The notes under the pieces: model-generated
What the model was told of the DNA's origin: nothing
The model's input: only the letters and a program-made list of their open reading frames with translations
The model's database searches: none
Source: Paramacrobiotus richtersi
Taxonomy: Eukaryota > Tardigrada > Eutardigrada > Parachela > Macrobiotidae
Assembly: GCA_034698045.1 (NCBI GenBank)
Contig: JAQGAU010000001.1
Span: forward strand, 1-64,000
DNA: 64,000 bases
Reading direction: 5' to 3'
Part shown: positions 1,463-36,737 of the stretch, piece by piece
Position numbering within the stretch: position 1 is the stretch's first letter
How the letters are laid out: each line of letters opens with the position of its first letter
Position numbers and translations under genes: made by a program

Positions 1463-4400
1463 TCATCCGTCAAGCCAAAACGTCATAATCGACCCGACGC
1501 CCTAAAAAAACATTTAACCTTTTACTACACTTACGCAGTGACTATTTTAGTCCAAGTGCCGTGGTTTTTATATTTACCTTGAGATAAGTCATTCCGCGCG
1601 GAAGAATCTGATACCCTGCGTCAGAAAGCAGCAGAGCCTCTGTTGCATAGCTTATGTGAATTCTTCCTGGTTTGCTGGAACAAGCCAGACTGGACGTAAG
1701 GTTTACGGAATCACCAAACCTGGAAACCAAATAATACATTGAGTCACTGCTTGAGAGCAACGTTTTCCATTTGATTTAACACTGTGCATCACGGTACTTA
1801 CACAGAATAGCGTGGACGCGCGGTACCCACGACACCTGCTGCGCAAGCTCCTACAATGCAATGCGCGAGTTAATATTGTATTCCGTAATCCGTAATACAA
1901 AATGAACACTGGCAGTTTATTAGCGTACCGCTGTGAAGGCCCGCTTTCACCCGCAGTCCCTCTGTCATAAAAGCTTTCTCAAAGTCATCCCGCACTTCCA
2001 AAGCCAGAGCGGCCATAGTGTGAACATGCTCACCGGCATTTTCTACTGGAAGTCCGCTAACAACCTATTACAGAGTCGAGGTCGAGATTCTGTCGATAAG
2101 AGTAGAATGCACTGCATTTCTGCGTACCAAGCAGCTGTCTGTTACGGTTTCCGCTTTATAGCAATCATACGTAGCAAGGATACGGTCGAGCATGGAGAAC
2201 ATGGTATTGAGAAACAAGACAATTTCCAATGGTTTGGATTGGTTTTTTGTGATAAACTCATCAAATCCGGCCACGTGGATCCTGAGCAACGTAACCGAAT
2301 GGAATATTTGAGGCTCGACCAGGTGACCAATTCGCAGCTGCACGAGAACGTACCTAAGTTTACAACATGCGCTATTCTATTATAACTCGAGTATGACCTT
2401 TATCGTGACCCTTGTTTTATCTTCTAAACATTCGATTAACCAGCTAAAATCATAACTTCATAGGTTTTTTTCGTCCTGCTACATAGCCTAATTCTTACGT
2501 TTTCGTGTATCTTACACTATCGTAGTATGTAATATAACATAATCACTGCAGTTTCCTTCGAAATTAGTTGCCAAGTTTACCGCGGTAGCATCTGTCCTAG
2601 CAGCGAATCACACTTCTCCATTTCTTGCTTCAGTATATGTGTTCGTACGATAACAGCATTTTCCAGTTGAACAGCGTAGTCTTCTAAGCGTCTAACCAAT
2701 CCGTCCATGATTCTTCCGGGGACTCCGACTATTCGACCAATTTCCACTTTTACCTGCCAGATGTTCAATCTGTCGGCTGGGTGGGCGTTACGGCACGCAT
2801 GCAAAAGCGTCGATAAAACTGGTACGGCGCTGGGAGGAATGCCATGCTTTGCAGACTGTGCAAAGTCTATCAGTTTCTCGTCTACAAGAGAAAGCATCGT
2901 TTAGTCAACTGAAGATTATAACGTAAGGAAAAGGTCAGTTCCAACAGCTGAAAAAATCGTATTCCAAGGTTAACCAAAGGTCGTTTTTGAGGACAGGTTT
3001 CGCCGGCAGAACAACCATCAAGAAAGGTGTTCAAACCTAGTCTGTTACATAATCTAGCAACATTCGTTATTTCTTCTGGATAAAAACTTTTCAACAACAA
3101 CAAAAACAAATTTTCTGATGTTGGAAGTTAGCTTTCAGTGCCTTTCCCAATCCCGTGCATTAATATGCTAAAATTACACAACAACAATGACGAAAAAACT
3201 GTCAGAGAACAACACTCAAAATGCTTGAACTACTGTACCTCTTATATCTTCTTTGTGATCCTGGAGGATATAACTTATCAATCCTGCCACGGCATACACA
3301 TCGGCCGATGGTTCAGCACGCGGCGCAATGGAAGCAAACGTCGCACTTTCGATGAGGTCAATTCGCAGTTCCGGTGCGACCCATGAGTTGTCCAGAGATT
3401 GTCCAATAGCTTCGAAATTCTTGGGATTGATCAGCTCCACTTGCAGCTCGCTTAAGGCATCGTACAACCCAACCTCATTAATCTTCAGAACCAGGCGGCT
3501 GTCTATTAAGCACTTGGACGGTCGGAGATGGCCATGGCGACGAATAATGGTCCGATGGATCGCCGAAACACCCTATGCAAACTGCTAAGTAATTTCAATT
3601 TTATCTGAATGTATCTAGTTTTTTTTATAAAAAGTATATAACAATGTATTCTGCCTGATTTAGATATGATTAGCAGCGACATACAGTATAAGTGTTATGC
3701 AACATTTTTGCAGAAAGATTTGTATGTATGTATATGATTTTGAATCTACAGTATGTAGTTTTATTCTGCGTCCGCCATAAAAAAGCCGATATCGCACAGC
3801 TCATTACAAATTAACAAGGCATGTCATACACACCTCCACGATATCAGCAATCAACGAACACTTCAGTCCCCAATCCAGCGATATTTCTTCTATCAAATCA
3901 CCCAGATTTCCTCGTTGGCATAAAGCTGTTAGGTACGTTAAACGAATAGGTCCAAGTCCGATGCCGATCAGTGGATTTATATTCGGACACCGAAACGCTA
4001 AGGACCGAATCTAAAACATCGCTTCTAAAATAAACAGCTGAATAGTTCTGTCAGTCTTCTGCACCCATCTACCTCCGATAATAAAACGCGGAACTCAGGT
4101 CTGACGTTAATTGCACCATGAGGAGAATGTAACACCACGGTCCGTCGACTAATTTGCACCACTTTGGCCCAGACCGGCCTTCCGCGATAGTTCATTGGGG
4201 CGTTTATCAGTACGTTGGATTTGTATGAGAACGGATGACTTCGCCCAGAAATCTATGCATCAGAAATACAATAGCGAAGCAACTTTAATTGCTGATTTTC
4301 GGTACATCGTAAATTCAAGTATGTATACTTCGCTGCTGCCAGATTCCACCGCTCGACTTAGATAATGCAAATCAACCATCCACCAGTTCTCGTCAACAGT

Positions 4401-6889
4401 CTGCTTCCGCATTCGTCTGGTACAAAATAATATAGGAACGTATTCCACTTTGCTACTTTATGATTAGTGCGTTATCATTCATTCTTTTTAAGTACGTACA
4501 AAAACGCCGGGAAGGTGCAAGAAAGAACGAGAGCAGCGAGAATTATCCCACAAACGATCCCACCCAACGTGGAACTGCCTGTTACAAATGAGACATTGTG
4601 AAACTGTTTTATATGATACAGATACCACTGAATATCTTACTCATTTTTAAGCATGCCGGTTTGTCCTTTTTGTACCCGCACGACGGTTCATTCGGTGGAG
4701 GCAGATTTTCCGGCGTTCCCCAGTTAATAGTAAAATTCAAGTTCTGCTGAAGCGTCTGTGTTGAACTATCGAAGTATTGCACTTTCTGTAATATTACGTT
4801 GTTAATTACTTTCTTTTGCAGCACATACCAATATTATGTCTCCTTTAGTTCGGGCATAAAATCCAGTTTGCATCTGACAGTGTTTGAGAAAGTCTCTATC
4901 TTACCTCATATCTTTGTAATTCCGGTTGGAAATTGTATAGACAGATGTTATTTTGTCGTTCTCCGTCTTTATCGATGTACACGCTCCCCACAGCAGGGAA
5001 ACTGAACGTGCGATTCTGCATGGACTGCGCCATTCTCGTTCCGTCATGAGGATCGTATCCCGCACTGACTGCTTCGCTTAGCGTCTATCGAGCACGTCTA
5101 GTCATGTTAAACAATGCCACTAGAATCACATGAAGAAACTGTTTCTTCTTACCTGAGCGTATAGTAATAAAGACGTATATGCAGTAATCCCAAATTCACT
5201 AATCTGGGACAAAATTTAACGCCTATTATCTATTGTTTTTTATAATGATATTGAGCACCATACTATTTTTTACCTCTTCATCATTGCGAAACGTAGCGTT
5301 ATACACCTTCATACTCCGCTCTTTCGTCATTCGCTTTAGCTTAATTACTTCCATGTCGTCGTGTTCGTAGCAAATCGAGATGATGAACAATGGTTGCCAG
5401 TTCGTGACAACAACCTTCACAAGGTGACACATAGATTAAACTGACGACTACTGTCATTTAAGTTTAGCTCTTTAACAAGAAAGGGTCAGTTACCTCAATG
5501 CTGCTGTGGGGAAATCTCTGAGACAACAGACTTGCGTCACTTTCTGGATAGTCAAGATAGATCTGAACCTACAAAAATGGTCGCCAAAACAGGAAAACAT
5601 CCAAATATTACAAAAAATTAATAATCAGGTTCGAGTTGTTGTCGCATACGTAATCTTCACTGGCCTCGCCGGCTTCCGTAAATGCCACCTTTTGAATTTA
5701 ATGACAATGTTAGTGGAGTACTATCGTTTTTCTAAACAAGCGCGTCACAAGTTTACCCGAAACATTTCCGCAGTATTAGCTGGAATCGCAAAGATGACCA
5801 CTGCAACAAACCAGATCAATCACCGGTACGTTGCAAGCTTCTCACAGCGTGGGATTCACCTTACCCCGAGCGACGATAGAAAGGTCACTTATAATTGGCC
5901 TGAAATCAATGTTTTCCCTGGTATCCACAGGGAACGCATGCACTTCTACGTGTCCAGAAGTTTCCCGCATATATCGGCGTATCTCTCCCGCAACCAAGAG
6001 ATGGAACAATGTGACGCGGGAACCATCGTAGATAATGGCAATGCTGGTCCAGTTATAGGCTGCGGTCAACTGGCCAATCATTACACCATAAATTTCATAT
6101 TGGGACGGTCCGAGAGCGATGGCTGTTGGGTAGGTTGTTCGATTTCGCAGATTGGAAAAGGTTGTTCCTCTGAATCCAAATCACTTATCGAAATATTAAA
6201 CATATCCTCCTGTTATTGTATGGATAACTTACGTATTGACTGTCAACACATTCCACTCTGCATAAAGAAAAACAACCCTGACACGGATGCGCATATGCAC
6301 AATCTCGGAGTTTAACAAACCTCGTCCAAAATCTGTTAATGTTGTGGATGCATCACACCCTAAAAAGCAAAATGTTTTGCGGTTGGTTGGCAATATGTAT
6401 ACATACATTACAGCTCTTATAGAAATCTGACCAATTTGTAAAAAGTATTTAGGAAAAAATTCCGGTTTACACGTTTTGAAACAGCACACATAACTTTCAC
6501 TACAAGCGTTTCTTTCAGTAAAATCTGTTGCTCAAGAAACTCAAGTATGTACAGTACAAACCTGGATAAAACACAGCTACAACGTCTGACCCCTCCTCCA
6601 CAATATCGTAATACCTTTCCACAACTTCGTGAACATTTGCCGGCATATCAGGACATTGCATAACAGACATGGAAGAAACAAACTCCAGTTCAAAGTTCAG
6701 TACTCCCACAAAATCCGTATTAACGATTTCTGCAGCTAGCTCGAAGCCAGGCGCCGTATACGCTAAACACGGCAAATCTGGCGGCTTCCACATTCCGTAT
6801 ACCATAATGGTTACGTTCAAGACACCCTTTACATCAATTAAAGAACTGCATAGAATTAGCAACGTAAGACACTGCGGTGTTAACATCAT
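1463..6889 (-). CDS. RGC1: class-1 receptor guanylyl cyclase, catalytic residues lost
   Basis: A membrane receptor of the natriuretic-peptide-receptor type, with a guanylyl cyclase domain that looks inactive. Exons read in order: signal peptide and ectodomain (first exon 6889-6562, containing VTIMVYGMWKPP), ANF-receptor-like block (TTFSNLRNRTTYPTAIALG, YNWTSIAIIYD), one membrane segment (about 4575-4490), kinase homology domain (WWMVDL near 4365; RRHGHLRPSKCLID near 3530), dimerisation helix ending EMEKCDSLLGQMLPR (to about 2580) and cyclase domain (2390-1463). The last exon (1501-1463) ends GVGSIMTFWLDG. In the cyclase domain the first metal Asp is His (LLRIHVAGF), the guanine-selecting Cys is Ser (RYS) and the transition-state Arg is Ser (NLTSSLA); the second metal Asp is kept (ETVTD). 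I chose the start at MMLTPQ because RGC2 has the same motif before its signal peptide; an upstream in-frame Met lies at 6955. No broken exon was seen, so this looks like a gene, not a pseudogene. Confidence 0.85.
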
Positions 6890-7383
6890 GCTCGATACGC
6901 AGCCGATCGCGGTAAGAGTGAACAGCTGACAGTGTTTTTGCATCGTCTCTGACAATTCTTTCAGGGTGGATGTCTTATTTAAGGCTCAGCAGATTAATTA
7001 TTTGCTTCAAGAAGCTCGCATCTATTGATTAGATCACGGACAGTTTACTGGTGGGTATATTGTATCTCGTCGAAGCGAGACGTTTCTTGCATACTGCAGA
7101 TGCGACAGCTGGATAATCGTGAGCTTTTCCGTTAATGCTTGCTTCTGGTCAGTTATATAGGCGAAAAAAGCATATTTCTTTATTTTTCACGTTTTTAAGA
7201 CTGTTGCGGAAGCATAACGCAACTGTAGTGCATAATGGAAAGAAATCAAAGAACTGCCATAACCGATAATAAGAACATGTGCATTCGCCTTAAAAACATT
7301 ACTAGATGCTAAAAACGTTTAATATCTTTTGAAGCAATGGAAAACACCAAGTTTACGATATCCCGTCCGTAGAAGCATAATGG
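6890..7383. other. Intergenic between RGC2 3' end and RGC1 start
   Basis: About 500 bases holding the RGC1 promoter and the RGC2 3' region. A motif at about 7022-7042 (core TTAGATCACGGA) recurs at the same distance upstream of RGC2. A TTTATT near 7179 is a possible minus-strand AATAAA for RGC2. Nothing else was recognised. Confidence 0.5.
7022..7042 (-). promoter_or_regulatory. Putative promoter motif shared by RGC1 and RGC2
   Basis: TATTGATTAGATCACGGACA lies about 135 bases upstream of the RGC1 start. TATTGCTTAGGTCACGAACG lies about 130 bases upstream of the RGC2 start (13483-13505). The match and the equal spacing suggest a shared promoter or 5' UTR element kept after duplication. No transcription factor is assigned. 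Because the genes are paralogous, simple shared descent without function is possible. Confidence 0.35.
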
Positions 7384-10300
7384 TTACCCTTCAAGCCAAA
7401 AGGTCATTATCGATCCAACACCCTGATCCACATTCATGGTTCAATATTAAATTTTATTGAACAACTAAGAAATGTTTTACCTTGAGGTAGATCCTGCCGC
7501 ATTGATGGATTTTGTAATCTGAATCAATACTTAACAACGCCTTCGTTGCATAACTAATCTGAATTTTCCCTGGTTTGCTTGAACAGGCTAACCTGGAGGT
7601 GACATTCACCGAGTCACCGAATCTACGAAAGAATGTTCAAAAAAACAGGATCTGTAAAGGAATGGACAATCGGACACCAGCAGTTTATAGTTTCACTTAC
7701 ATACAGTAACGTGGTCGAGCGGTGCCTACAACGCCGGCTGCGCAAGGTCCTGCAATGCGGAAATCCAGAGTAACCGCAGTCTGTCAGACCAAGCAACAAA
7801 CCGTCAGTACGTACCACTATGAAGACCCGCTTGAATACGCAGACCCTCTCCAGCGAAACCCTTTTCAAAATCGTTTCGCATGTCCAGAGCCAAACTGCCA
7901 ATCATGTAAACATGTTCTCCATCGTTTTCAATAGGAAGTCCACTGACAACCTATATTTGAAGTTTTAACGACACAATGATCAATCATCAATGTGGAAGTT
8001 CACTGCGTCGCGTACCAAACAGCTGTCTGTTATAGTTTCAACTTTGTAGCAGTCATATCTACCCAGGATCCTGTCGAACATTGTGAACATGCCGTTAAGA
8101 AACATAACAATCTCCAGTGGACGGGACTGGCACTTTATCACAAATTCGTCAAACCCGGCCACGTGTGTCATGAGGATTGTAACCAAATGGAACATTTGAG
8201 CCTGTACTTGGTGACCGATTCGCAACTGCACGAGAACGTACCTAAATTTCAAAATGTACTGGTTTATTAGCATTCTACTAATTTTTTCGGCATATAAAAA
8301 AAAATTCACTATAGTTCGTTTTATTATGGAACTTTCATTTCATTTTTGTTTTTGAGCTTAATTAGCAGGTTCTGTATGCTACAAGTCTGGATCCATGTCT
8401 ACAATTATGATAATGGGATGCTGTAGTTTCTGTCTGATGCGCAAACGTACCGTGGTAGCATCTCTCCTAACAGCAAATCACATCTTTCCATTTCCTGCTT
8501 TAGTGTCAGGGTTCGTATCGCAACCGCATTTTCTAGTTGAACCGCGTACTCTTCTAAGCGTCTAACCAGTCCGTCCAGCAGTTTTCCAGGGCTTCCGATT
8601 ATGCGACTGATTTCTCCTTTTACTTGGCAGATGCTTGGCCGCTCCCATGGATTCACGTAACGGCATTCATATAGGAGTTTTGATAGTACGGGTACGCCAT
8701 TGGGTGGAAAGCCGTGCTTGCTTGATAGCGCAATGTCAACCAATCTATCGTCTGGAACAAAAAGCACTAGTTCCAGTGATCATGCTGCAACGAAAGGTAA
8801 TTTCATTGAACTTCTTTTCCGCTACAAAAGAGAAGCCGAACGAACTGTTCAAAAACAACAAAGTAAACATCGTGTTACACAGGGAACGAGAGAAGGCATC
8901 GTTATTGTAGATCTGCGTTTAATGACGGAACCTGAGTTTCCCGGTAAGTGGGTCATAAGGTCACGCTGGCTTTTGGTGTCTCTGTGTCTGGAGAGTTTTT
9001 GCACACAAAAAGTGTGAAGCTGTTGCCTTCGAACGGAATTCCTGCGCCCCAAAAGAGGTCTTTATCCGAAAGTAAATGCTTAAATGGGCATTACGGGCTT
9101 TGCATCTTTCGATTATGGCTTTTTCCACCGCACAGTAAAAGTGTAAAAAAAGTAGAGAAGCCATTTATCAAATTTTTTGATCTGTTCATCACCGAAATGC
9201 GGTCGAAGATTGGTATGACCTCTTAACGGATTCTTTCTATTTTCCTTTGACTGTGAGGTAAATTTTATCATTCTGCGCAGCGGTGACGAACTGCATCTGC
9301 GCTGCAGTTGGCCTCCCGGTAATCAGTCGCTAATCTGAAATGACCCTACTGGGATGTGCAAAATATTAAAAAGTCTTATTGGGACAACCACTTATTGAAG
9401 ATTACATCCATTGATACAACTACCGATCACTATGCAGAAGCTTCTCCCCGGTAAACGGAATGGTCTCAATAGAACGTTTTGGTGCTTCACGGTCCCATGT
9501 AAGTTCGCAATTGTGCGGTACGCAAAACTTCTGTCGGCTGAACAAGCGCACCAGTATTTTCAGCCTGTAGCACCGAGTTTCGAAGGCAATATCTCTATTC
9601 AGGCCAGAACGAACAGTATTTAAAGGTTAAAATTCGGCATTTGTTGTGCTGGACATTGATTAGGCGAAGCAGAAGACTCACAGCGAAACAAGCACCAAAA
9701 ACTCATGTATACCTTTTTCGTGCTTGTGATCTTGCAGGAGATAATTAATCAGTCCTCCCACCGCATACACATCGGCTGGCGGTCCGGCTCGCAGTGTAAT
9801 GGAGCCAAATGTCGTATTTTCAGTTAAACCACTTCGCAGTTCTGGTGCTACCCATGCATTACGCAAATATTGTCCAATAGTTTCACAATTCTTGGGGTTA
9901 ACGAGCTCGACGTGCAGTTCGCGTAGGATATCGTACGCTCCAACTTCAGTGATCTTAAGAACCATTCGGCTGTCTATCAAGCATTTGGACGGGCAAAGAT
10001 GGCCGTGGCGACGAATCCTGGTGCGATGGATCGCCAAAACACCCTGTTCCAATTAGTTAGCAATTAGCTTGCAAAGACGAAGGCCAAAGTACGAACCTCC
10101 ACAATGTCAGCAATCAGAGAACACTTCAGTCCCCAGTCCAACGATATTTCCTCAATCAAGTCGTCCAAGCTTCCTCGTCGACAGAAGGTTGTCAGGTACG
10201 TTAAACGACCAGGTCCAAGTCCGATACCAACAAGCGGATTAATGTTCGGGCACCGAAATGCCAAGGACCGAATCTAAAATTTCCTTTATGAACGCGGTGT

Positions 10301-13300
10301 TATCATAGTCAGTGCATTGTAACCATTTACTTCGGCTAATAAAACACGCAGTTCGGCTCTGACGGTAGCGCCTCCATGGGGTAAGTTCAATACTGCGGTG
10401 CGTCGACTAATTTGAACGACCTTTGCCCAAACCGGCGTTCCGCGGTAGTTCACTGGAGCGTTGATCAATACATTGGATCTGTATGAGTAAGGATGATTTT
10501 CTCCAGAAATCTGGGAAGCAATCGGAATGAACACAGTGCTCCTTTTTCTTAGCTTCGCTGCTGTACCTCGCTACCGCCGGGTTCGAAAGGTCGACTCAAG
10601 TAATGCAGGTCCACCATCCACCAGTTGTCATCGACTGTATTCTTTTGCACACGTCTGAAGCAAATTTACGTCTGTATTTTTGCAATCGAATTATGTTGGT
10701 AAATTTCGAATACTTGTACGCACTTGAAAGCGAGTGCGGTGCAGAAAAGAAGTAGAACAACGAGAATTACTCCTGAAACAATGCCGCCTAGTGTGGAATT
10801 GCCTAAACACGTGACAGATATTTACCTGAAAGGCTGAAACTGAACTGCACGTAATATAGAAAAGACACAGTTATACACTCACCGATTCTAGAACATGGTG
10901 GTTTATTCTTCCTAAAGCCGCATTTCGGCTCGCTTAGAGGAGGTAGATTCACTGGTGTTCCCCAGTTGATAAAAGTGTTTGGAACGTCGTACAGTGTTCG
11001 TACCGCACTATCGAAATACTGCACTCTCTACAAAACCAACCGCAGTTCACAATCGAAGCCACCATACCGAAAAATAGTTCTTTTGTTTCGGAACGCATTT
11101 GTTCCATATTCCGTATTCGTGCCGTATGATGGCCCGTATCTAGTGCAGCTGCAACATCATTAAGTTTAATTTACCTCGAATCGTTGCAGCTCTGGCTTGA
11201 AATTGTACAGGCAGATGGTATTTTGTCTCTCTCCGTCTTTGTCAATGTACAGGCTGCCAACAGTAGGGATGGAAAATGTACGGTTCAGCATGAGTCCGGC
11301 TACCAGCGTCCCGTCATGTGGATCATGCTTCCCGTAGACTGTTTCATTTAGCGCCTACTAAACACGTGCAAGCACTTCTGTACAGACGATACAGGAGAGA
11401 ATGTCTCACCTCGGCATAAAGCAGCAGCGACGTGTACGCCGTGACTGCAAATTCACTTGACTGAAAAGAAATACTGCTCCACCAAAATACGGTGCTCGCG
11501 AATATCAAGTAAAGTTTGATATCTATCCATATATCGAGAACGGCTTATTCCATGACCTTTTCTACATCTAGTTACGATACCATGTGTACGCACCGGGAAC
11601 GCGCACCACTTATGAAACAAGCCAACCTTATTGCCTCTTTAACGTTACTGATTACATTGGACTCCAGTAGGCCATAGTTGCACATCCTTCACTTGTAATA
11701 GCGGTTAAAACGACCCGCTCAGTTGACAAGTTACGTACCTGTCCGCCGTTGCGAAAGGTAGCATTATACACGGTCATAGTCCGTTCTTTCATCGTCCGTT
11801 TCAGTTTATTTATTTCCACATCGTCGTGCTGGAAGCAAATCGATATGATGAGCACCGATTGCCAGAGCGTTGTTAGCACCTGCTAATGGACGTTAGTAAG
11901 CTTTAGAAAGTCTGGATGCAGGAAAGGTCACTTTACACTGGTGGTGTTCATAGAGTAGCTTTGCGACAACGGACTTCCAATCAGTTCAGAAAAATCGATA
12001 TAAATCTGAACCTGAACCATAATTATAATGTTAGAGTTAGACAAAATCAGTTAATCCTACATTGTTTCGCTCGTCCTACATATTCTTCTCTGGGTTCTCC
12101 GGAGGCCAAGAACGCCACCTTCAAAATACCAAGACCTAGTTTGTCGTTTGACAACATGAAAATAATGATCTACCAGGAAACTTTGCGTAGAATTGACGGG
12201 CATGGACAACAGTATCACTGTAGCAAATAATCAGAAGTACGTAGGTTGTGACCGAACCATCAGAACGTATGACAAGGAAATTGCCTTACCCCGAGTAAAC
12301 ATGGAGATTTCCGTTATAGTTAGTTGAAAATCAACATTTTCCCTTATATCTACCGGAAACGCGTGCACATCGACGAATTCGTGGTATCGTCGCATATACC
12401 GCCGGATTTCTTGTGCAACAAGTAGGTTGAAGGGTATGGCACCCGAGACATCGTAAACAATGGCTATGCTCGTCCAGTTATAGGCTGCGGTCAACTGCCG
12501 AATCATTACTCCGTAGATTTCGTACTGATGTGGTCCGATCGCGATAGTTGTGGGGTATGTTGTTCGGTTGCGTAAAGTCGAAAAGGTCGTTCCGCTAACC
12601 AGCAGTTTTAGTCGAAGCATCTTAACTTTCGGACTGTTCAGTTTTTGTACAGCTACTTACGTGTTAACGGTGAGAATGTTCCATTCTGGAGGAAAGGCTT
12701 ATCAAAATGGCAAGCCACAAAAATCTTTTAAAATTCGACAAACCTCGTCCAAAATCCGCAATTGTTGTGGAAGAATCGCAGCCTGTAAAGTTTAGATGCT
12801 TGAAAGTGTTATCCGTCAAATCAACCATTGTGTGGCTGTAGAAGTATTACAGAAAACTGTTTTTAGCGTTGTTATAGAAGATGGATTTCAGAATCTCCAC
12901 TTTCAACGTTCTCCATTTCCCATGTGCTGAACTTTTTTTGAACCTTCTAAACAATGCTTTTCTGCATCTTGTTATGTTGTACCGACGGCTTCGAACTTAA
13001 TGCGAACTAGATTAACATACCTGGGTAGAAGACAGCCAGAGTATGTGTATCCTCAGCCGTTCTCTTTAGATCGTAGTACTTCTCCGCAATTTGATAGTAA
13101 TTGGCCGATAAATCGGCACAGTTGATAACCGACCTGGAAGACACGAACTGAAGTTGAAAGTGTAGTACATCTGCATACTTTTCGTTGACTAATGCCGTGG
13201 CCAGCTCAAAACCGGGCGCCGTGTAAGCCAGACACTGCAAAAATGGTGGCTTCCACATTCCATATATCATAAGGGTGACATTGGACACTCCATCAACAAC

Positions 13301-13354
13301 AATGGGAATCACATGCAGAATAAATACCCATAGAAATTGTGGCGTTAGCATCAT
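7384..13354 (-). CDS. RGC2: class-1 receptor guanylyl cyclase lacking first metal Asp
   Basis: Close paralogue of RGC1 with the same exon plan. The first exon (13354-13021) gives a signal peptide (MMLTPQFLWVFIL) and VTLMIYGMWKPP; the next block reads SNLRNRTTYPTTIAIG and YNWTSIAIVYD. The single membrane segment is encoded at about 10803-10728 (GIVSGVILVVLLLFCTALAF). The kinase homology domain (SRMVLKITEVGAYD near 9960) and signalling helix (EMERCDLLLGEMLPR, about 8455) follow. The cyclase domain has His for the first metal Asp (ILMTHVAGF) but keeps the second Asp (VETITD), the guanine-binding Glu and Cys (RYCIFGD), Asn and Arg (NVTSRLA). The final exon, 7422-7384, reads GVGSIMTFWLEG. The intron at about 8775-9700 is unusually long for this family and contains nothing recognisable. 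cGMP synthesis by a homodimer is doubtful. The start was chosen at MM by homology with RGC1; another Met lies at 13393. Confidence 0.85.
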
Positions 13355-14052
13355 GTTCGTTGCATAAGTGAAGAAGGGATAGCACTGCTGCACTTCACTT
13401 AGGAATTATGTTTACCAATGTGGTGTTATGAAAGGTTAAGGAGATTCGTTAATTTTTGAGGAGCTGGAATGCTGTTGGATGGTATTGCTTAGGTCACGAA
13501 CGGCGCGCCGTTTTGTCTCGCCAGATCTTAGAATGAGATCATCGTATACTTTAGGGGCGCTTTCACATTAGTGTTTGGTATAGTAATGATTAAGTCTTAG
13601 CAACCTTTCGAGAATCTCCCAGTGTCACATGTTGATCTGTTAGTATCAGTTATCGATCGTAATTAGGACAACAATTTGTTTAATAAATTAAGATTCGCGT
13701 GAACACGGACAACAATCATGTTCATTATTACGCACCTACGCACATTTTACGCAAACAAATGCCTAATTTGGTTACTGAGAACAACAGCCAGTATACGATG
13801 CTTCTCTGGTTCTTATTTCCTGTTCTCATTATTTTTCATGATAAATTGCCTCGGGCTGGCTCTCATCATGAGCTAAGACACTGGGAAGCTAAAGAGCAAA
13901 TTTCTCAACACATTAATCATATCAAAAGGATTCGATATGATGACATCAAATTTCTCGTTACCAGAATCATTACAATTACTCTCTGAACACTTCGCTGATG
14001 GTGTGAAAACTTTTGGTGAGAAAAAGTTGTTCTACACCTTAACATCGTAAGA
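13355..14052. promoter_or_regulatory. Head-to-head intergenic region of RGC2 and RGC3
   Basis: About 700 bases separate the divergent starts of RGC2 (minus) and RGC3 (plus), so both promoters must lie here. It contains the RGC1/RGC2 shared motif at 13483-13505, directly followed by a perfect 14-base palindrome, AACGGCGCGCCGTT (13499-13512). No other gene is seen. Confidence 0.5.
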
Positions 14053-17000
14053 ATGACGGTGTTAACACTGCGTTGTGTCGCACCACTGATTTTCGTCTGC
14101 CATCTGAAAGTCGCGATCGCTGTTGTAAACGTAACAATACTAGTACACGGGATGTGGAAGCCACCGTATCTGCAAGCGTTGCCTTTTACTGCCCCTGGAT
14201 TCGAGATGGCGGCGTCGGTTGTTAACGAGAAATATAAAGACAAACTGAACTTCCAGTTGATCTTCGTGTCGTCGCAGTCTGTCTTGCAGTGTCCTGATAT
14301 TTCAGCGAGCTATTACGAGGTCGCTAAGCGGTATTACAACATGATAAACGACGAGTTCCGAGTTTTGTCTGTGTTTTACCCAGGTACACTACAGAATATC
14401 AATGAATGTCTTTTCCCGATTTTTTGAAGCGTTATACCAGGCAAGAATCTCTGCTGTATATGATGAAAATAAAGTGCAGTTTAGGCTGCGATCCTTCCAC
14501 AACACTGGCAGACTTTGGACGAGGTATGTGAAACTTCCATCATCTGTTGCAAACAGTTCTTCAACTTCGCGGTCATGTTCCCTAACAGAATGGAACCTGT
14601 TAACGGTCAACACGTAAGTATCGAAAAGTCAACGCTCTAAATTACTTAAACCTGTATTCGTCTATTCGACTGTTTAGCTGCGTGTATTAGCGCAAGTTAA
14701 GTACATACTTCAATAGATTGAATGAATCTCGATGATGCACAATGTAGAATTTTTTGAAACTTTGCCAACGAAGAAGCAACACACCCACTGGCACTAATAA
14801 AGAATTCCAAGATGCAGATCCTTCTGATTGTCTGTAGCGATTCTCTTCGACAGGGGTCCCACATTTTCCAACTTGCGAAACCGGGACACCTACCCAACGG
14901 CTATCGCACTTGGAGCATCGCAGTACGAAATTTACGGTGTAATGGTTGGTCAGCTGACCACATCCTACAACTGGACGAGTATTGCTATTTTATATGACAT
15001 TTCCGGAACGACTGTCTTTCACCGTTTGGTTGGCCAAGAGGTGTTGAATTATATGCGCAAAAACTACGAATTTATCGCTGTCCATACGTTTCCTGTTGAC
15101 ACCAGGGACAACGTTGATTTCCAGCCAATTATCGGAGAAATCTCGATGCTCACGCGGGGTAGGTTAATTCTAGATGATTATGATCACGCAACCTTAATGA
15201 TTTGTTTGTTTCAGTCGTCTTCGTGGCAATGCCGTCTAATGTTACGCAATTATTTCTGGTACGGTATCAGCATGTCATCAGCAGAGCCATACGTCATTTA
15301 CCGCATCAGTTTCACATTCTAGTGTTTTTTTTTGTACAGCTCACGTTTAACGAATCCCGTGAAAACAAAGAAGAATATGTATGTCCGACACCGTCTATAG
15401 AAAGAACTTAAAAATTTCTTAATATGGTTCGCTATGCTCATTTCAGGTTCACATTCAGATTGATTTCTCTGGAAGTCCTGGAAATATGCTTGATTATAAC
15501 TTTACAGCCAGAAAGGCCGACGTAAGTGCTACATATGCAGGATTCTTGTGTTTACACGAAGCCTGTGTTTTAGGTTGCTTCGGCTCTTTGGCAATCCATT
15601 TTCATTGTGGCTGTCTGTTTTGAACACGATGAAACTGAAATAGTGGGACTTATGCGAAAACTAAAGGAACGCGCTGTTTCTTCGTACAACGCCACATTCC
15701 GTCCCAACAACGGGGTAAAAAACCGTATTGCTATAGTACGTTTACGGAATGAACATTTTTGTGACAATTTGTCTGTTAAATATTAGCCTAGTGAACATGT
15801 GATCACGGCATACACGTCGATACTGCTGTACGCCCAAGTAAGAAAAATCGAAACTTTCTTAAGTAACATCAGAAAAAGGCTCTTGATAGATCCTGAACGA
15901 AACCATAACGGCAGGACATGATCCGGGCAATGGGAAGCTCGCCGCTGAATCCATGCTGAACCGGACATTCAGCTTTCCTGTTGTGGGCAGCGTCTACGTT
16001 GACCAACAGGGTGAACGACAAAACACCATCTGTCTGTACAATTTCCGACCCGAACTGCAAAGATTTGAGGTATCCATTGGGTCCCGGTTTGGACTAAAAG
16101 ACTTTTTATACTATGTTTTGCTTTAGAGGGTTCGGTACTTCGATAGCGCCGCACAGATATTTCGATCCGTTACCAATGTAACGATTCAATGGAAGACTAA
16201 AGACAATCTACCGCCGGCCGATGAGCCAGTGTGTGGTTTCAGAAAGGACAAACCGCCTTGCGTGACAATAGGTACACACTTCTTGCGTAGAAACGAAGCT
16301 TCACCAGCCGTGATAAATTCATCGTACGTTGGTTTCAGGTTCTGCCGCATTGGCTGGAATTGTTTCCGGAATACTTGTCGTGTTTCTCGGTCTATTTTTT
16401 GCCGTGTGCACATTCTTGTACGTCCCTGCAAATTACCCAGTACTAATACACCGACAATGATTAGTTTGGCTTGTTTAGGCGCCTACAGAAGCTACCAATC
16501 GATAAAGACTGGTGGATAGTGGATCTACATCATTTGAAGCGAGCAACAGAATTCAACAGCACCAGAGTACATGCAGGGAATAAGTATAACATGCATCAGC
16601 CAATCACTGTTTTTCTGTATTGCGATAGATATCCAAGTGTAGCCATCGTTATTCCTATCAATCAAAGCTCCTAACCCACGCTCCAGTGACTTACCGAGGC
16701 GTGCCCGCGTGGGTCAAGGTTGTACAAATTAGTCAACTGGCGTTATCACCAGGAAATCAAGGGGCGGTCCATGTCACTAAAGAATTTCGTTCTCTGCTCA
16801 CCGAGGTAACTCAACCTTTTTGGCTGAAGTTTTGTAGGTAAAGATCGCAATTTTTTCAGATCCGGACATTACAGCAAAGATGCGTGAATATCAATCAGTT
16901 GGTCGGAATCGCGCTCGAACCAGTCCGGCTTACATACCTAAGTGCTTTTTGCCAACGAGGAAATTTGCACGAACTGATCGAAGAAGTGTCGCTAGACTGG

Positions 17001-18892
17001 GGACTGAAGTGCTCCTTAATTTCTGATATTATCGAAGTTCGTTTAGGCCTTAAACCGGCAAGTTTTCTATTCTTCAACAAAAAATCCATATAGGGTGTTT
17101 CGGAGATTCATCGCACGAGCATTCGTCGGCATGGCCATCTTCGCCCATCCAAATGTCTGATAGATCGACGGCTAGTGCTAAAAATTAGCGAAGTCGGATT
17201 CTATGATATCCTTAAGGAGCTACAAGTGGAAGCGACAAATTCCAAGAATGTTACGTTTACTGACTACTCCCTGCACAGTGCATGGATGGCGCCGGAACTG
17301 CGAATGGGACTAAATGAAAGTGCGACGTATTCCCATGTGGCCCTGCAAGCACGGCCGTCGGCTGATGTGTATGCCTTGGGTGGACTGATAAATTACGTGT
17401 TACAGGATCATAAACCTGAGGAAGGTGCGCCGTTGGTAGCAGAATCAATATTGCAAGACAATATACATAGTAGAGGCGTCGGAATAAAGAGATCTTTTAA
17501 TTCAATAAGTCAATTCGATTTAATTTGTTCGTCTATCAGTGTTTATTCTTTGGCACTAAAGACTTACCAGAGTTTGCGTGATCAGGTGGACATATTATTA
17601 CATTGTTACAGATGATGAACTGCAAGATTTTGCATATGCCAATAAATCTGGCATTCCGCCTAGAGCGATACCTGTGCTCACTTCCCTTTTCAATGGGTGT
17701 CGAAGCGCACACCCGGAAGACAGGCCAAGTATCTGGCAAGTGAAAATGGAAATCAACAGAGTTATTGAAAACTCAGGAAACCTGTTGGAAAAGCTCCTGA
17801 AGCGTCTGGAAGAGTACGCCATCCAACTAGAGAGCGCCGTTAGCCTCCGGACACAGACGCTTAAACAAGAAATCGACAGATGTGATTCTCTTTTAGAAGA
17901 AATGCTTCCACGGTATGTTGGTCGTTAAAGAGAACGCATGCAAGAAGTTTGTTAAAGGAATAAAGTCAGACATATTTTTCGAAAATTTAGGTATGTCTTA
18001 GTACAGCTACGAATTGGTCATCTCGTGTACCCTCAACTTTTCCCGTCCGTTACGCTCCTCATAACCAACGTGGCCGGGTTTGACGAGTTCGTGATCAAGT
18101 CCCAGTCAAGCCCATTGGAGATTGTCGTATTTCTTAATGGAATGTTCACGCTCTTCGATCGGTCCGTCGTAAAATACGACTGCTATAAAGTGGAGACCAT
18201 AACGGACTGTTGCTTGGTATGTTCCACACTGTATGCGGCAAAAACGACCTTGACCTTTGCTGGTCCGAAGAACTATCTGAAACCCACGAGAATGTTTCAG
18301 GTTGCCAGTGGCCTTCCCGTGGAAAACTCTGGTGAACACGTCAACATAATCGCCATGTTATCTCTTGAACTGCTGGAAGCATTTGAAAGGGCTTTTCGGC
18401 TTGACGGGCTCCGTTTGAAAGCTGGAATCCATACTGGTTTGTGTTGATTGTGTTTTTGGATGCTCACAGAATTAGCTGAATACACACTGACATATCGTAT
18501 CAATTTTTAGGGCCATGTGCTGCCGGTGTTGTCGGCACAGCGCGACCACGTTATTGCGTGTATGTCAAAAGCATATCTGTCTGAAACGCTTTTGCGGTCA
18601 ATGTGGCCGGATTGGTTAACCTGCATTAATTTTTTTCCTTGATTTTGGGTGCAGATTTGGCGATTCCGTGAATGTTACATCGAGGTTAGCGTACTCAAGC
18701 CAGCCAGGGAAAATCCATATAAGCCATGAAACGGAAACCCTGCTGGGGATTGACTCCGGGTTTAAAGTTGGTCCGCGCGGTATGACTTATCTGAAGGTAA
18801 ACCAGTACATACCATATTAGTGATACCAATGCATAACTGCGTTTTGTTTTCAGGGAATTGGAGCGATCCGGACCTTCTGGCTCCATGCATAA
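14053..18892 (+). CDS. RGC3: class-1 receptor guanylyl cyclase lacking first metal Asp
   Basis: Twenty-two exons could be joined in frame to a 1040-residue protein, the normal size for a receptor guanylyl cyclase. Exons: 14053-14383, 14485-14523, 14589-14613, 14854-15158, 15215-15258, 15340-15378, 15447-15521, 15574-15714, 15787-15837, 15890-16069, 16127-16271, 16339-16417, 16479-16583, 16643-16805, 16860-17036, 17094-17424, 17612-17912, 17991-18216, 18301-18436, 18511-18559, 18655-18796, 18854-18892. Residues 1-458 form the signal peptide and ANF-receptor-like ectodomain; about 459-485 the membrane segment; 486-770 the kinase homology domain (WWIVDL; RRHGHLRPSKCLID); then the signalling helix (QEIDRCDSLLEEMLPR) and the cyclase domain to the end (TFWLHA). 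The first metal Asp is Asn (LLITNVAGF). The second Asp (VETITD), Glu, Cys (RYCVFGD), Asn and Arg (NVTSRLA) remain. All introns are GT-AG. Confidence 0.92.
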
Positions 18893-20975: not shown

Positions 20976-23900
20976 ATGACAGCACATTTTGTGACAAGTG
21001 CAGTGATTTCCTTGTGTTTGTTTTGCACACATTATGGTTATACAAATGCCGTTGACATCACCGTTGTGGTTTATGGAATGTGGATGCCTCCGTTGCTGCA
21101 GTCGCTGATATATACTGCCGCCGGGTTTGATTTAGGAGTTCGGGATGCTGTGAATATGCTCGGCGATAACATAACCATGACGGTGGATTACACTGCATCT
21201 AAAGATGTACTACAGTGTCCAGATATTTCGGCTAATTATTACCGGGTTGCGGAGCGCTATTACCGATTGCAGCAGGAACAAAACCAAGTTGTGGGCATTT
21301 TCTACGCAGGTTAGTACAAATCTGTACCGGAGATTCAGTAGTATCTGTAGAAGACCGGAATTCGTTCCTTTTCTATAATTTCTTTTTGAACTCTGAATTT
21401 GTGCTGTGCATGCAACAATCCACTTATGTCATGATATTTTGTAAAGCGGTCGCTGGACAATCTCTGCTGTACAAAGACGTCCTGCATGTGTTGCACTTTT
21501 GCAGGATGTGATTCTGCAGCAGCTTTGGCCGATTTTGGAAGAGGTTTGTTCGTCACTGCTGTAGAACGAAAAGCTTAGTTCTTGTATTTAATAAGAAGCG
21601 TGGTCGAATTATCTGTTTCCTTGCTGCAGAATGGAACATCTTCGCACTGTCAAGGTAGGTCGTGATCTTGTCTTAACCCTCGCCCCCTGATGGCGGTGTG
21701 CGAGACCGCTTTGGCTATTCAAAAAGCCAGTACAAATTCAGTTCAACTCCTTTCATCATGTCCTTACATGAATGCCTATAACTTTTTACGCTCTTCCATA
21801 TGGCAACTACTGTTTTTCTGAAAAACAATGGCAGAGAGAGTTACGGAGGCGGTGTCCCACACCGCCCGAACCGGAAGCTGAATTCTGCGTATGCAAGATT
21901 TCCTAAGTGAATTTTTTACGGGAATTCGTGAAATGTACAAACATTCAGGGATAGTTTCTCTACCATGGGCAGCTCAAAGAGCCACTCGGGAAAATTTCTT
22001 GATTCGATTGTACTCACTTGACTGAAATGACAGAATTCAGCTGTTTTCTGTGGAAACACCGTCCACCATTGGCATGCCTGCCTCATGACAATGATTTAAT
22101 TGAATCGAGCGGTGCATTTGTGGCGGATCCGTGAATTCTCATTGGCTTGGTTCCATACACCGCTCAAAATCTCGAAGTATAATTTTCTTGGAAGGGGGCG
22201 AGGGTTAAAACATTAGTTCCTTACAGCTGTCGTAGCTAGAGGACACAAGCAAGCATTATAATACTTACTTACTTTAGTAGTTGTGTGGAAACTGAAATAA
22301 TACCGTAAATTATTGAACTATAATTATAGTTTCACTAGCAAAGTAATAATATATTATTTAAGTTCCCGCCCACCTTGTTTTGAAGAACAAAATATAATCG
22401 ATTTTGGTAGGAATCAATCAGCTGATGGATAGGTGTGATCTTTGTCTAATTACGCTACTGTAGTCACACTACAATCCTGGAGTAATGATTTTCTGTTCTT
22501 GAATTTCAGCGAATGTTTATTCTGCGTTTGCTGAACGATCATACCATATTGTTTTAGCGGGACAACATTCTCCAATCTACGAGACCGCACGGTTTATCCC
22601 ACAACGATCGCCTTCGGGCCGATGCAGTATGAGCTCTACGGCTTGGTAATTGGCCGATTTCTCCAGGCATACCACTGGTCCAGTGCGGCGCTCATCTACG
22701 ACATCTCCGGCTTCACGGTGTATAACCTCCGGGTAGCGGAAGAGATCCTACGGTACTTCCGTAAATATTACGATCACATGGAGATGCACGCGTTTCCCGT
22801 GAATGCCAGTGATGTAATGGATTTCCCGAAAATTATCCGGGAGTTATCATCATTTAGCCGAGGTATCACTTACCAGTCCTAAATCCTAATTAGACGGCCA
22901 ATTGCAACTGAACACACAATTCGATGAAAACCGTTTATTATTTTAGTTATTTTTCTTTCCTTACCGCCTGATCCCGCAAAGTTATTTTTGGTACGTGCGT
23001 GTTCGGTCATGTGTTCTACATATTGAAATTGGGAAGTTTCCGTAGAAAAATTTCGCTGCTTCCGGAGAACCGGCTGAGGAATACGTAAGCATATGCTATA
23101 TCCTGTTACTAATTTCGTATGAAAGACACGGCATGAAATTTATAATTTTATATGGTTTCTATTACAGGTTCGGATTTACATCGATATTCCTGGAGCCGCC
23201 ACTAGTCCCCTTGCAATGACGTATACAGATAATAAAAATGAGGTAATTCTAATTTAGACTATGTGGTTCAAAAATACCTAGTATATAATCCTGCAAATGT
23301 ATTGATGATCACATGCTACAGGAAGCAAGACAGTTGTTTTCGCCCCTTCTTTTTCTGACTATCTGCTACGATCATGAAGAGCGAGACGTGGCTGATTTGA
23401 AGACACAAATGAAAGATCTGGCGATGCGCCGTTATAACGCGACGTTTCGTCCTGGTGGCGGGGTACGTCAATAGGTCACGTAGGTGCTCTTAAGATATGC
23501 TTATTGTTAGTAGAACGATTAATAGAAGCTTCTGTTGTTTAGCCGAGTGAACTCGTCATGACAGCATATACGTCGATGCTGCTGTACGGTCAAGTGAGTA
23601 TACTGTATTAAAAGGGCCCAAAAAAAAGAAGCGTTATCAGTTTTTATTGTTGTATAGGTTGTACAAGAAACCATTCAAAACGGTGACAACCCACGAGATG
23701 GAACTCTCATTGCCCAAACCATACAAAACCGCACCTTTTCCTTCCCGAAAGTGGGCAGTGTCTACATTGATCAACACGGCGAGCGGCAAAACATCCTGTG
23801 CTTCTTTGCATTCCAAACAAACATCCAGACATTCGAGGTGGAAATTTTGAATCTCTTGCTGTTACTAGACAGTCGAAATCTGATTTAAGTGGAGGCTTTT

Positions 23901-26900
23901 CTTAGAAAGTGCTGTATTTTGACGGTGCGACGGCGATGCTGAGGAAGGTACCCAATGTCAGCATAAACTGGACCACGCCGAATAACATGCCACCCCCAAA
24001 TAAGCCGATTTGTGGTTATCAACGGGATCTGCCACCCTGCAGAAAAGAAGGTGCGGTTGTGGGAATGAATTATGAGATACAGTCGATAATCTGCTTTGGT
24101 TCGTTCTTATGCAGGTTTATCACGCAATAGTATAATCGGGATGGTCATCGGTATCTTGGTTTCAACGGCCGTGGTGGTGGTTTATCTCGTTAGGTACACC
24201 CAAGAACTTACCATATCTAAAAGGACTAGTAAGGGATTGCGCAATCACGCGTGACGTCAGCGGTCTGCGCTACAGCTAAATATGCGGCCGTAGACTTTTA
24301 TGTTGTGGCAATTTCTGTAACTTGGTTCCATTTTGTTAGAAGTGACACACTATAGCTCGAAAGATAGAGAAGAAAATTTGGTCAGTAGTTCAAACTACTA
24401 GTTTGAATTATTGGTTCGAAAGAATTAAGAGTTGTCATCGTTTCCAGTTAGCAGTCTACGAGAGGTCTCTGCAACGGTCTTGTAGGCTTCTATGTTACCT
24501 AAAGACGGCCATAACTTCTTCCTTTCGAACCAATGGATCAACTTTGTAGTTGGGACTGCTAGCCAAAGTTTTTTCTCTATCTTTCAAGCTATACGAGCTC
24601 GTAGTGTGTCACTTCTGAATGAAATGGAACCAAGTTACAAAAATCGCCCACAACATAGAGGTCTACGGGCGCATATTTAGCTGTAGCGTCGACCGGTGAC
24701 GCCACACAGTCACATACCAGTCCTTTTAGATATAGTAAGTTCTTGGTACACCTTAATACGCAATCGTGTTATATCTTTCTAGCTCCATATCCTTGCATTT
24801 AGTTCCTTACTCCAGTAAAAACTAAACGTAGACAATTGTGTAGAACGGTACCGTTAATGCAATCGTTGTATACAAACACTTCGCCTTTTTTCAGACGAAT
24901 GCGACAAATGCCTGTTGCCGATGGATGGTGGAAGATTGACACCGACTGTCTGACCAATGCAAGTCACTTTTTAAGCACAAAAAATCGATCATCAGAACCC
25001 CGGGCCGTGACGGTTTACAAAGGTACTCCGGTATGGAGCCAGAGTATACCAGTTGAGCAAAGGACAACCTTACTGTATGGTTCCACTGGCGAAATACCTG
25101 TTACGCCGGCTTTCAATCGAACCATGGTGGAGGTAGTGAAAGGTTCCAACCGCAATAAATTCTCGTAGCAAACTGCGAACTGTTTGTTTCAGCTTCGAAC
25201 TCTGATCGACCGCTGCACGCACATCAACCCTCTCATCGGAATAGACTATCGTTTCTATCGCATCACATATTTCTATGAGTTCTGTTCCCGCGGAAGTTTG
25301 GTTGACCTGTTTCAAGATATCAGTTTGGACTGGAATTTGAGAAGTTCACTGATCGCGGATCTTGTCGAAGTTTGTTGATTGCTGTACTATTCATTACGTA
25401 GTGTGGTGTATAAAATGTCTGACCTTAAACAGGGCGTGGCCGCTATTCACCGATCCCATCTTCGAAGCCACGGTTACCTTCGCCCATCAAATTGCTTAGT
25501 CGACAAACACCTGGTTCTGAAAATTGGGGATGTTGGGTTGTGTAATACGTTAGCGGATTTACACTTGGATACCTTCAGCGAAGAAACGAAAAGCATGAAA
25601 GACTGGACTGCGCCTGAGCTGAGAGGCGGACTTCGTGAGAAAGTGGCGCAAGCTGATCCTGCAGCTGACATCTACATCGTTGGGGAACTGATCGGCTACA
25701 TAACTCTTGATTACGTTAAAGGTCATCTTTTCTCAGCTCTCTCCAAAGCCTAGAACACATTCTATAAGAACATCGTTGCAGACCATCAGTCCATTTTGAC
25801 GCATGATCCAGCAGATGTTGTGGATATTCCCTTCAATGCTCGGATAATACTGAGCAGTGTAATCGAACAATGTGAACACAATGACCCCACGCAGCGTCCA
25901 ACCATTTACCAGATAAAGAAAACCATTGGCAAGGTTGTTGATCAGAGCGGACGGCTCATCGACAAGCTATTCCGGAGGCTGGAAGACTATGCTTATCAGT
26001 TGGAAAGCGCCGTAACCGTACGAACTCAAACTCTAAAGATGGAGATCGAGAAATGTGATACGCTGTTAGGAGAAGTATTGCCGAGGTAAGAATGTCGTGA
26101 AGCATTGCGAAACAAGCGAAACAAGACATCAGCCGCGTTTACCTGCACATGTTTTAAAAATGTTTCTGCCTTTTTAGTCAACAAAAGATGAAAGCAAATA
26201 CATGGCTAAAAACAAGAGTAATATTTTTTAGGTACATCATAGTCCAGCTACGCGTCGGACGCATCGTGCAAGCGCAGGAATTCGCTTCGGCGACGCTTTT
26301 GTTCACCGGTGTGTCGGGATTCGATGAACTTGTCCGTACTTGCCAAGATACCCCGTTAGATATCGTGAATTTTTTGGGACTTATGTTCAGCGTCTTCGAT
26401 CGGGTTATAAGCAAATATGACTGCTACAAAGTGGAAACGATCACTGATACTTGCCTGGTTCGTGAATTCTTGGATTAATGCCCTTAAAAATCGCTAACCC
26501 GTTATGAATTAGGTGGCAAGCGGTGTACCAATTCCGAATAACGGTGACCACGTATTTATCGTTGGAAAGCTTTCGCTCAACCTTCGCAGTGCCTTCATTA
26601 ACCATTTCCCGACAAAACAGCTAAATATTCAATCCGGTATACATACCGGTATGTAATAATATGAAGAATTCTAGTTACTGTGTTCATATTGTACATCAAG
26701 AAACTTCAAGTGCGTTTGCAAATAGGGCCCTGCGCAGCCGGTGTTGTTGGTACATCTCGGCCGCGATATTGCCTGTAAGTAATCGTCCAATTTTGGCCGA
26801 TGTCTTAGTATTATTTGATTTATCGCGGTCTCATGTCATTAGCTTTGGAGATTCGGTGAATGTTACTTCCCGATTGGTTTCAACAAGCCAGCCCGGAAGG

Positions 26901-27125
26901 ATCCATGTCAGCGATGCAATGGCGAAGGCTTTGGAGACAGACGAGACGTTTCGGATTTATGAACGTGGCAAGACATGGCTTAAGGTATACTTTTCGTAAT
27001 GTGCGTAATATTTGTAGTAACGTTGTAACGTAATGATTCGCAACTACACTTTGGGTGCAAAGATGCAAAAACGTCTTTGGTTTTAGGGTTTAGGGGAGGT
27101 TTCGACGTTTTGGCTTGAAGGTTAA
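20976..27125 (+). CDS. RGC4: class-1 receptor guanylyl cyclase lacking first metal Asp
   Basis: Twenty-one exons join in frame to 1018 residues: 20976-21309, 21505-21543, 21630-21654, 22558-22862, 22947-22990, 23046-23084, 23168-23242, 23322-23462, 23543-23593, 23658-23837, 23906-24050, 24115-24193, 24895-25132, 25193-25369, 25433-25721, 25782-26085, 26232-26457, 26513-26648, 26726-26774, 26843-26984, 27087-27125. Most exon lengths equal those of RGC3 to the base; exons 13 and 14 of RGC3 are one exon here (24895-25132). Domains follow the family order: signal peptide (MTAHFVTSAVISLCLF), ectodomain, membrane segment (GMVIGILVSTAVVVVYLV), kinase homology domain, signalling helix (EIEKCDTLLGEVLPR), cyclase. 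The first metal Asp is Gly (LLFTGVSGF); VETITD, RYC and NVTSRLV are kept. Introns 3 and 12 carry a piggyBac-like MITE and a foldback element. AATAAA at 27181 follows the stop. Two upstream in-frame Met codons exist (20901, 20931); 20976 gives the best signal peptide. Confidence 0.9.
21677..22204. mobile_element. piggyBac-like MITE in RGC4 intron 3
   Basis: A 528-base segment begins CCCTCGCCCCC and ends with the exact inverse GGGGGCGAGGG. It is flanked on both sides by TTAA (21673-21676 and 22205-22208). A TTAA target and CCCT/AGGG ends are the hallmark of the piggyBac superfamily. There is no transposase frame, so it is non-autonomous. Inside are several CGGTGTG/CACACCG palindromic motifs, for example at about 21849. 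It lies wholly within an intron and should be spliced out. Confidence 0.85.
24201..24745. mobile_element. Foldback (long inverted repeat) element in RGC4 intron 12
   Basis: A 545-base near-palindrome starts CAAGAACTTACCATATC and ends with the matching GATATAGTAAGTTCTTG; similarity between the arms continues to near the centre. It is flanked by the 7-base direct repeat GTACACC (24194-24200 and 24746-24752). The left copy is the splice donor of exon 24115-24193, so the insertion duplicated the donor sequence. There is no coding capacity. The superfamily is uncertain (7-8 base duplication). Confidence 0.85.
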
Positions 27126-36118: not shown

Positions 36119-36737
36119 CGGAAGCAGTGACGAATTTAGACCGGTTTTGAGGGAGGGTCCGGGCTCCTCCAACAGAACGGTCCCCCCTTCTGTTGAATTT
36201 CGGCGAACCCACCCTATAGCATACCGGGAATGGGGGGGGGCCATGGCCGCCCGGCCCCCCCCCTAAATTCGTCCATGATCGGAAGATTTTTACGCCAGCG
36301 TTCTCCGCAGTAAAATTGTCAAAAACAATAATGACTCCAATTCTCCAAATATCAGAATGCGTGACTGACAAGAAGCAGGCGCACTGCCATTATTGCGTCT
36401 GTGTACGTATGGAATAGCATACACCCAAGGGGCGGACGCCAATGCATCCTCCTAACAACTGTCGAGTACATGTCGAGATGTTCGTTTACCCATACTTCAA
36501 GCTCCCTATCTTTTGTTTATGGTAACGGAATAAATATCAGTCTGTAACGAAACTAGCGACTGTTATACTGGAACATGTACTAAATTAATCGACGCAGATT
36601 GTGACTATTCGGGAATCATCAGTCTTATGGTTGTGTTACCGCGTATGTCCGGCGTTGTCCGCATCTGTTGCCCGAAACCTGCGTAGCAGTTAGCGTTCGA
36701 CGACAGGAGGCGACCGCCCATGCGATGCTAAGAATTA
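36119..36737. other. 5' flank of K1, homologous to the 5' flank of K2
   Basis: Outside the MITE, this stretch aligns with the region upstream of K2: ACACCCAAGGGGCGGA and GTAACGAAACTA occur in both, and AATTAATCGAC with CGGGAATCAT matches the far side of the bZIP gene. So K1 and K2 arose as a segmental duplication that included the promoter. The bZIP-containing segment found near K2 is absent here. Confidence 0.6.
36125..36277. mobile_element. hAT-type MITE at the 5' end of K1
   Basis: A 153-base element with ends CAGTGACGAATTTAG and (inverse) CATGGACGAATTTAG, flanked by the perfect 8-base direct repeat ATCGGAAG (36117-36124 and 36278-36285). An 8-base duplication and a CAGTG end fit the hAT superfamily. 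The element is GC-rich inside, with runs of G and C. The left duplication overlaps the first in-frame ATG of K1. The equivalent place in K2 has no insertion. Confidence 0.88.

Follow-up and report, generated by a model that had tools for sequence, protein, structure and literature searches.

Catalytic residues in receptor guanylyl cyclases

Mammalian receptor guanylyl cyclases are known to form homodimers. Work on soluble guanylyl cyclase (sGC) and on Chlamydomonas CYG12 lists eight catalytic positions, which are divided between the two subunits of a site (PMC3591389, PMC2576301). The metal half consists of positions 1 (Asp), 3 (Asp) and 4 (Arg), and the GTP half of positions 2 (Glu), 5 (Cys), 6 (Asn), 7 (Arg) and 8 (Lys) (PMC3591389, PMC2576301). 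One-sided homodimers are inactive (PMC3591389, PMC2576301), those of sGC being reported so in PMC3591389. In C. elegans, the receptor cyclases ODR-1 and DAF-11 have been reported as obligate heterodimers, and reviews describe a number of receptor cyclases of this nematode as devoid of GTP-binding or Mg-coordinating residues and possibly dependent on a complementary partner (PMC5225109, PMC8045692); formal proof of the heterodimer idea in native nematode cells is still missing (PMC8045692).

Here we describe nine receptor guanylyl cyclase genes clustered in a stretch of 64,000 nucleotides from the tardigrade Paramacrobiotus richtersi (contig JAQGAU010000001.1; the window below), which fall into four class-1 genes (RGC1 to RGC4) and five class-2 genes (RGC5 to RGC9). 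As far as published descriptions allow comparison, the class-1 proteins are similar to ODR-1/DAF-11, receptor cyclases that miss catalytic residues and have been proposed to share one site. In contrast to the nematode pair, the missing catalytic residues can here be listed individually and are shared by a tandem clade of four genes, which lies beside five complete cyclases. Heterodimer-only receptor cyclases are already known; new here are the explicit residue pattern and the tandem arrangement with complete relatives.

Gene structure of the cluster

The gene models were derived by exon-level comparison of the paralogues and then by spliced protein-to-DNA alignment, on the basis of homology alone, without transcripts. 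The nine genes are located in the window as follows.

RGC1 (class 1), 1463..6886, minus strand: receptor guanylyl cyclase of 1031 amino acids, 21 exons, one terminal stop
RGC2 (class 1), 7384..13351, minus strand: receptor guanylyl cyclase of 1033 amino acids, 21 exons
RGC3 (class 1), 14053..18892, plus strand: receptor guanylyl cyclase, 20 exons
RGC4 (class 1), 20976..27125, plus strand: receptor guanylyl cyclase, 19 exons, the most divergent class-1 member
RGC5 (class 2), 27635..32930, minus strand: all eight catalytic residues, candidate metal donor and partner
RGC6 (class 2), 44128..49647, minus strand: eight of eight catalytic residues
RGC7 (class 2), 50302..55418, minus strand: eight of eight catalytic residues
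RGC8 (class 2), 56435..60912, minus strand: eight of eight catalytic residues
RGC9 (class 2), 62646..64000, minus strand: gene cut by the window end, cyclase domain complete, eight of eight catalytic residues

A preliminary description of this DNA had placed the four class-1 genes between 1463 and 27125, which are the exact stops of RGC1 and RGC4. With lengths of about 1000-1040 amino acids, the class-1 proteins are encoded by 19-21 exons, and in all four genes the frame is open to a single terminal stop. Their introns are nearly all of the GT-AG type, with a few GC-AG, and introns of the cluster are compact (median about 70 nt). The last five exons, encoding the cyclase domain, measure 226, 136, 49, 142, and 39 nt and are identical in length in RGC1 to RGC4, and the uncertain exon joints of the class-1 models fall in the variable linkers of the kinase-homology domain (KHD). 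The 142-nt class-1 exon (e.g. 18655-18796) corresponds in class 2 to exons of 50 and 92 nt (e.g. 44591-44267) separated by an extra intron, and the 136- and 49-nt exons are seemingly fused in RGC7 to RGC9. RGC2 and RGC3 are arranged head to head, and the ~700 bp between their first coding exons (13351-14053) may represent a shared promoter region.

Two tandem genes of the BTB-plus-Kelch type (34123-36114 and 39831-42232, minus strand) are situated between RGC5 and RGC6, with matches to BTB (E 5.1e-5) and to the Kelch motif (E 8.4e-6). Between these two copies there is a long imperfect inverted repeat (36736-39512) resembling a foldback-type transposable element; its pieces of about 100-160 nt are 88-94% complementary and about 2-2.5 kb apart, and it contains 22-, 31-, and 44-nt tandem repeats. 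Scanning the window for RNA families and tRNAs gave no hits, and relatives sought in collections of bacterial and archaeal genomes and of viruses were not found there, except for one spurious phage stretch.

Loss of metal-half residues in class 1

Residues at the eight catalytic positions were compared with those of GC-A, GC-C, sGC alpha, sGC beta, and both halves of the adenylyl cyclase AC5, using sequences taken from PDB matches. GC-A and the class-2 proteins keep all eight. Positions 1 to 8 read H E D K S N S K in RGC1, H E D Q C N R K in RGC2, N E D K C N R K in RGC3, and G E D Q C N R K in RGC4, so that none of the four class-1 proteins carries the full set that a homodimer would be expected to need. 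The replaced positions correspond to the following codons.

RGC1 position 1 (metal), 2275..2277, minus strand: CAC, His
RGC1 position 4 (phosphate Arg in relatives), 1945..1947, minus strand: AAA, Lys
RGC1 position 5 (guanine Cys in relatives), 1804..1806, minus strand: TCT, Ser
RGC1 position 7 (transition-state Arg in relatives), 1689..1691, minus strand: AGT, Ser
RGC2 position 1 (metal), 8163..8165, minus strand: CAC, His
RGC2 position 4, 7831..7833, minus strand: CAA, Gln
RGC3 position 1 (metal), 18067..18069, plus strand: AAC, Asn
RGC3 position 4, 18418..18420, plus strand: AAA, Lys
RGC4 position 1 (metal), 26308..26310, plus strand: GGT, Gly
RGC4 position 4, 26630..26632, plus strand: CAA, Gln

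The absence of the first metal Asp from all four receptors, noticed in the preliminary description, is borne out by the codons CAC, CAC, AAC, and GGT (His, His, Asn, and Gly). The same description had the second metal Asp and the guanine-recognizing Glu retained throughout, which is correct for all four genes, whereas the motif VETITD that it ascribed to each of them reads AETVTD in RGC1. Among the reference proteins, the Asp of position 1 is present in GC-A, GC-C, sGC alpha, and the AC5 half C1; its place is taken by a Gly in sGC beta and by a Ser in the AC5 half C2.

The phosphate-binding Arg at position 4 is also replaced in every class-1 gene (by Lys, Gln, Lys, and Gln), and as far as residues can tell this is a second sign of a metal half that is apparently no longer used. 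In RGC2, RGC3, and RGC4 the losses are confined to positions 1 and 4, with Glu, Cys, Asn, Arg, and Lys of the GTP half all present; this is the pattern of sGC beta and would qualify the three as half-site subunits of the beta/C2 type. RGC1 has lost positions 1, 4, 5, and 7 and is thus damaged in both halves; its candidacy as a half-site subunit was rejected because positions 5 and 7 belong to the GTP half.

RGC2 to RGC4 share with sGC beta-1 a residue other than Asp at position 1 (Gly in sGC beta), the retained second Asp, the loss of the phosphate Arg, and the intact E/C/N/R/K set. However, sGC beta-1 is soluble and haem-bearing, and the alpha subunit with which it pairs shows the reciprocal degeneration, in contrast to the complete class-2 proteins that are the candidate partners here. 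A similar division exists in adenylyl cyclases, where C2 gives the nucleotide half and C1 the metals (position 1 of AC5 C2 is Ser and position 4 is Lys); the difference is that both adenylyl cyclase halves reside in one polypeptide, that C2 has lost both metal Asp residues, and that the specificity is for adenine.

In the KGKG loop, class 1 retains the first Lys, and the second is replaced by a hydrophobic residue (V, V, I, and L). The motif VNTAS of GC-A, GC-C, and class 2 is changed in class 1 to VN[VL]TS, which is nearer to VNLTS of sGC beta and VNVAS of adenylyl cyclase C2 and might lend slight support to a half-site role. The class-1 proteins also have a two-residue insertion directly past the position-1 metal loop (GFDEFVIKCQSRP versus GFTALSAESTP in GC-A). 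Longer insertions near the metal loop occur in sGC beta and AC5 C2, and convergence with class 1 is possible.

Domain architecture

The class-1 proteins consist of an ANF-type ectodomain, a membrane helix, a KHD, and a C-terminal class III cyclase domain; the single membrane helix of the models is one hydrophobic stretch read by eye. The cyclase domain of RGC2 matches Pfam Guanylate_cyc (E 4.3e-40), the ectodomain of RGC3 matches ANF_receptor (E 5.6e-8), and the RGC3 KHD matches Pkinase (E 3.7e-9) and PK_Tyr_Ser-Thr (E 5.5e-9). Judged by cyclase, KHD, and ectodomain, RGC1 to RGC4 can be classified as receptor guanylyl cyclases. An identical domain order is found in GC-A, which is also the closest solved sequence to the RGC2 cyclase domain (E 4e-36); GC-A is homodimeric and, unlike class 1, complete at eight of eight positions. 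The H-NOX haem domain had no Pfam match in RGC2 or RGC3, and on this ground, together with the ANF-type ectodomain and the KHD, we rejected the identification of class 1 as the beta subunit of soluble guanylyl cyclase.

When the two classes are aligned, the dimerisation helix preceding the cyclase domain shows no gaps, in keeping with the proposed mixed pairs. The region comprising the KHD and linker is 291-304 amino acids long in the class-2 models versus 333-380 in class 1, and the class-2 models (RGC5-RGC9, 27635-64000, minus strand) do not include the activation-segment/APE region present in class 1 (WVAPELR...), where an exon may have been missed.

Phylogeny and selection

On the phylogenetic tree class 1 forms a single clade (support 100/100) with a long stem branch of 1.45 changes per site, in agreement with the earlier proposal that these genes constitute one sub-family. 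For the pairs formed by RGC1, RGC2, and RGC3, the cyclase domain has an omega of 0.10-0.14, compared with 0.05-0.21 for the ectodomain and 0.16-0.24 for the KHD, all rough values with dS near saturation; the cyclase value is below both others in two of the three pairs. Omega = 1 is strongly rejected for these pairs, and under neutral, substitution-only drift open cyclase frames would be expected in just 0.07-1.1% of cases. These values indicate purifying selection on the cyclase domain of class 1, and the conclusion that the genes are maintained, drawn previously from open frames and exon lengths, now has the low cyclase omega beside the identical cyclase exons.

The ratio of cyclase to ectodomain divergence is 0.73-0.92 in class 1 versus 0.29-0.65 in class 2, which suggests some mild relaxation of the constraint on the cyclase domain. 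We also considered 69 positions that do not vary among class 2, GC-A, and the available sequence of GC-C; 17 of them are changed in all four class-1 genes. Several of the 17 have acquired one shared new residue, and Asp 1 has given way to three different replacements. At that rate, random loss would generate the one-sided pattern with a chance of about 0.15 x 0.11; the residue pattern by itself is not very improbable by chance and is suggestive rather than compelling.

The lack of the position 4 Arg in all four genes favours a loss in the class-1 ancestor. For Asp 1, the preliminary description had allowed for a single loss as well as for repeated ones, and since the His, Asn, and Gly codons are each one nucleotide from Asp, its codons fit either history.

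Possible modes of action

In a class III dimer, one subunit contributes two metal Asp residues and the phosphate Arg to each active site, and its counterpart contributes Glu, Cys, Asn, Arg, and Lys. In a class-1 homodimer Asp 1 and the phosphate Arg would be absent on both sides, leaving no complete site, and such a dimer is predicted to be inactive, as was anticipated from Asp 1. RGC2 to RGC4 have lost metal-half residues only, so they should remain capable of catalysis alongside a partner. Together with a metal-competent receptor they would form one working site and one dead pseudo-site, like sGC beta with sGC alpha, and the donor of the metal half would most plausibly be an adjacent class-2 receptor. 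RGC2 to RGC4 probably depend for their function on a complete partner, for instance one of the neighbouring class-2 receptors, as is known of soluble guanylyl cyclase and has been suggested for certain nematode receptors. Because RGC1 has in addition lost the guanine Cys and the transition-state Arg, any RGC1 dimer should be inactive; in a pair of RGC1 with class 2 neither side would be complete, and inhibition would be expected. RGC1 is possibly a dominant-negative subunit or a non-catalytic co-receptor. The earlier designation of the whole group as catalytically impaired is apt for RGC1, damaged in both halves, but not for RGC2 to RGC4, which keep the GTP half.

We propose, with a probability of roughly 0.55, that RGC1 to RGC4 represent a clade turned one-sided, of the beta/C2 type, in which RGC2 to RGC4 are active with a metal-bearing partner and RGC1 is dead. 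The observations behind this proposal are the residue pattern, intact genes under purifying selection, the receptor architecture, and the intact class-2 neighbours; from them we infer that class-1 subunits heterodimerise, which partner they take, and what activities they have. The main rival explanation is that all four are pseudocyclases, whose cyclase domain is kept for dimerisation or docking in a decoy, dominant-negative, or scaffold, the GTP half being a remnant. It would explain why RGC1, with both halves damaged, evolves no faster in the cyclase domain than RGC2 (17 versus 17 changes), and it accords with the 17 of 69 otherwise invariant positions altered throughout class 1, with the mild relaxation relative to class 2, and with the long stem. 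It is harder to reconcile with the intact Glu, Cys, Asn, Arg, and Lys of RGC2 to RGC4 next to an Asp 1 site that has taken three states, and we hold it to be a possible, tentative account.

His and Asn are able to coordinate metals, and with the second Asp retained in all four genes these residues might stand in for Asp 1, so that class-1 homodimers would still be active. Such activity seems very unlikely, given Gly at position 1 of RGC4, the accompanying loss of the phosphate Arg, and the reported inactivity of one-sided sGC homodimers (PMC3591389). Assembly error, wrong gene models, or pseudogenes are scarcely credible and were rejected: although the models derive from homology, contain a few GC-AG introns, and have uncertain joints in the KHD linkers, four separate loci agree, their cyclase exons are identical in length, the position-1 codons lie within one uninterrupted 226-nt exon, and the frames are open with omega far below 1.

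A point against the proposed half-site role of RGC2 to RGC4 is that class 2 keeps its own GTP half; it therefore does not resemble an obligate alpha-type subunit and may simply homodimerise. It is a speculative and rather unlikely picture that the cluster as a whole combines complete, homodimer-competent class-2 receptors, RGC2 to RGC4 acting in mixed pairs only, and RGC1 as a poison subunit. If true, it would amount to a set of combinatorial receptors whose cGMP output is set by which subunits meet.

Implications

If RGC2 to RGC4 are indeed half-site subunits, they would offer a clear example of a homodimeric receptor becoming asymmetric, on the same path as soluble guanylyl cyclase and adenylyl cyclase. 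The residue pattern leads to sharp single-residue predictions, namely that RGC2 to RGC4 would complement a metal-competent partner and that RGC1 would poison it, and these predictions bear on the incompletely proven heterodimer idea for the receptor cyclases of invertebrates.
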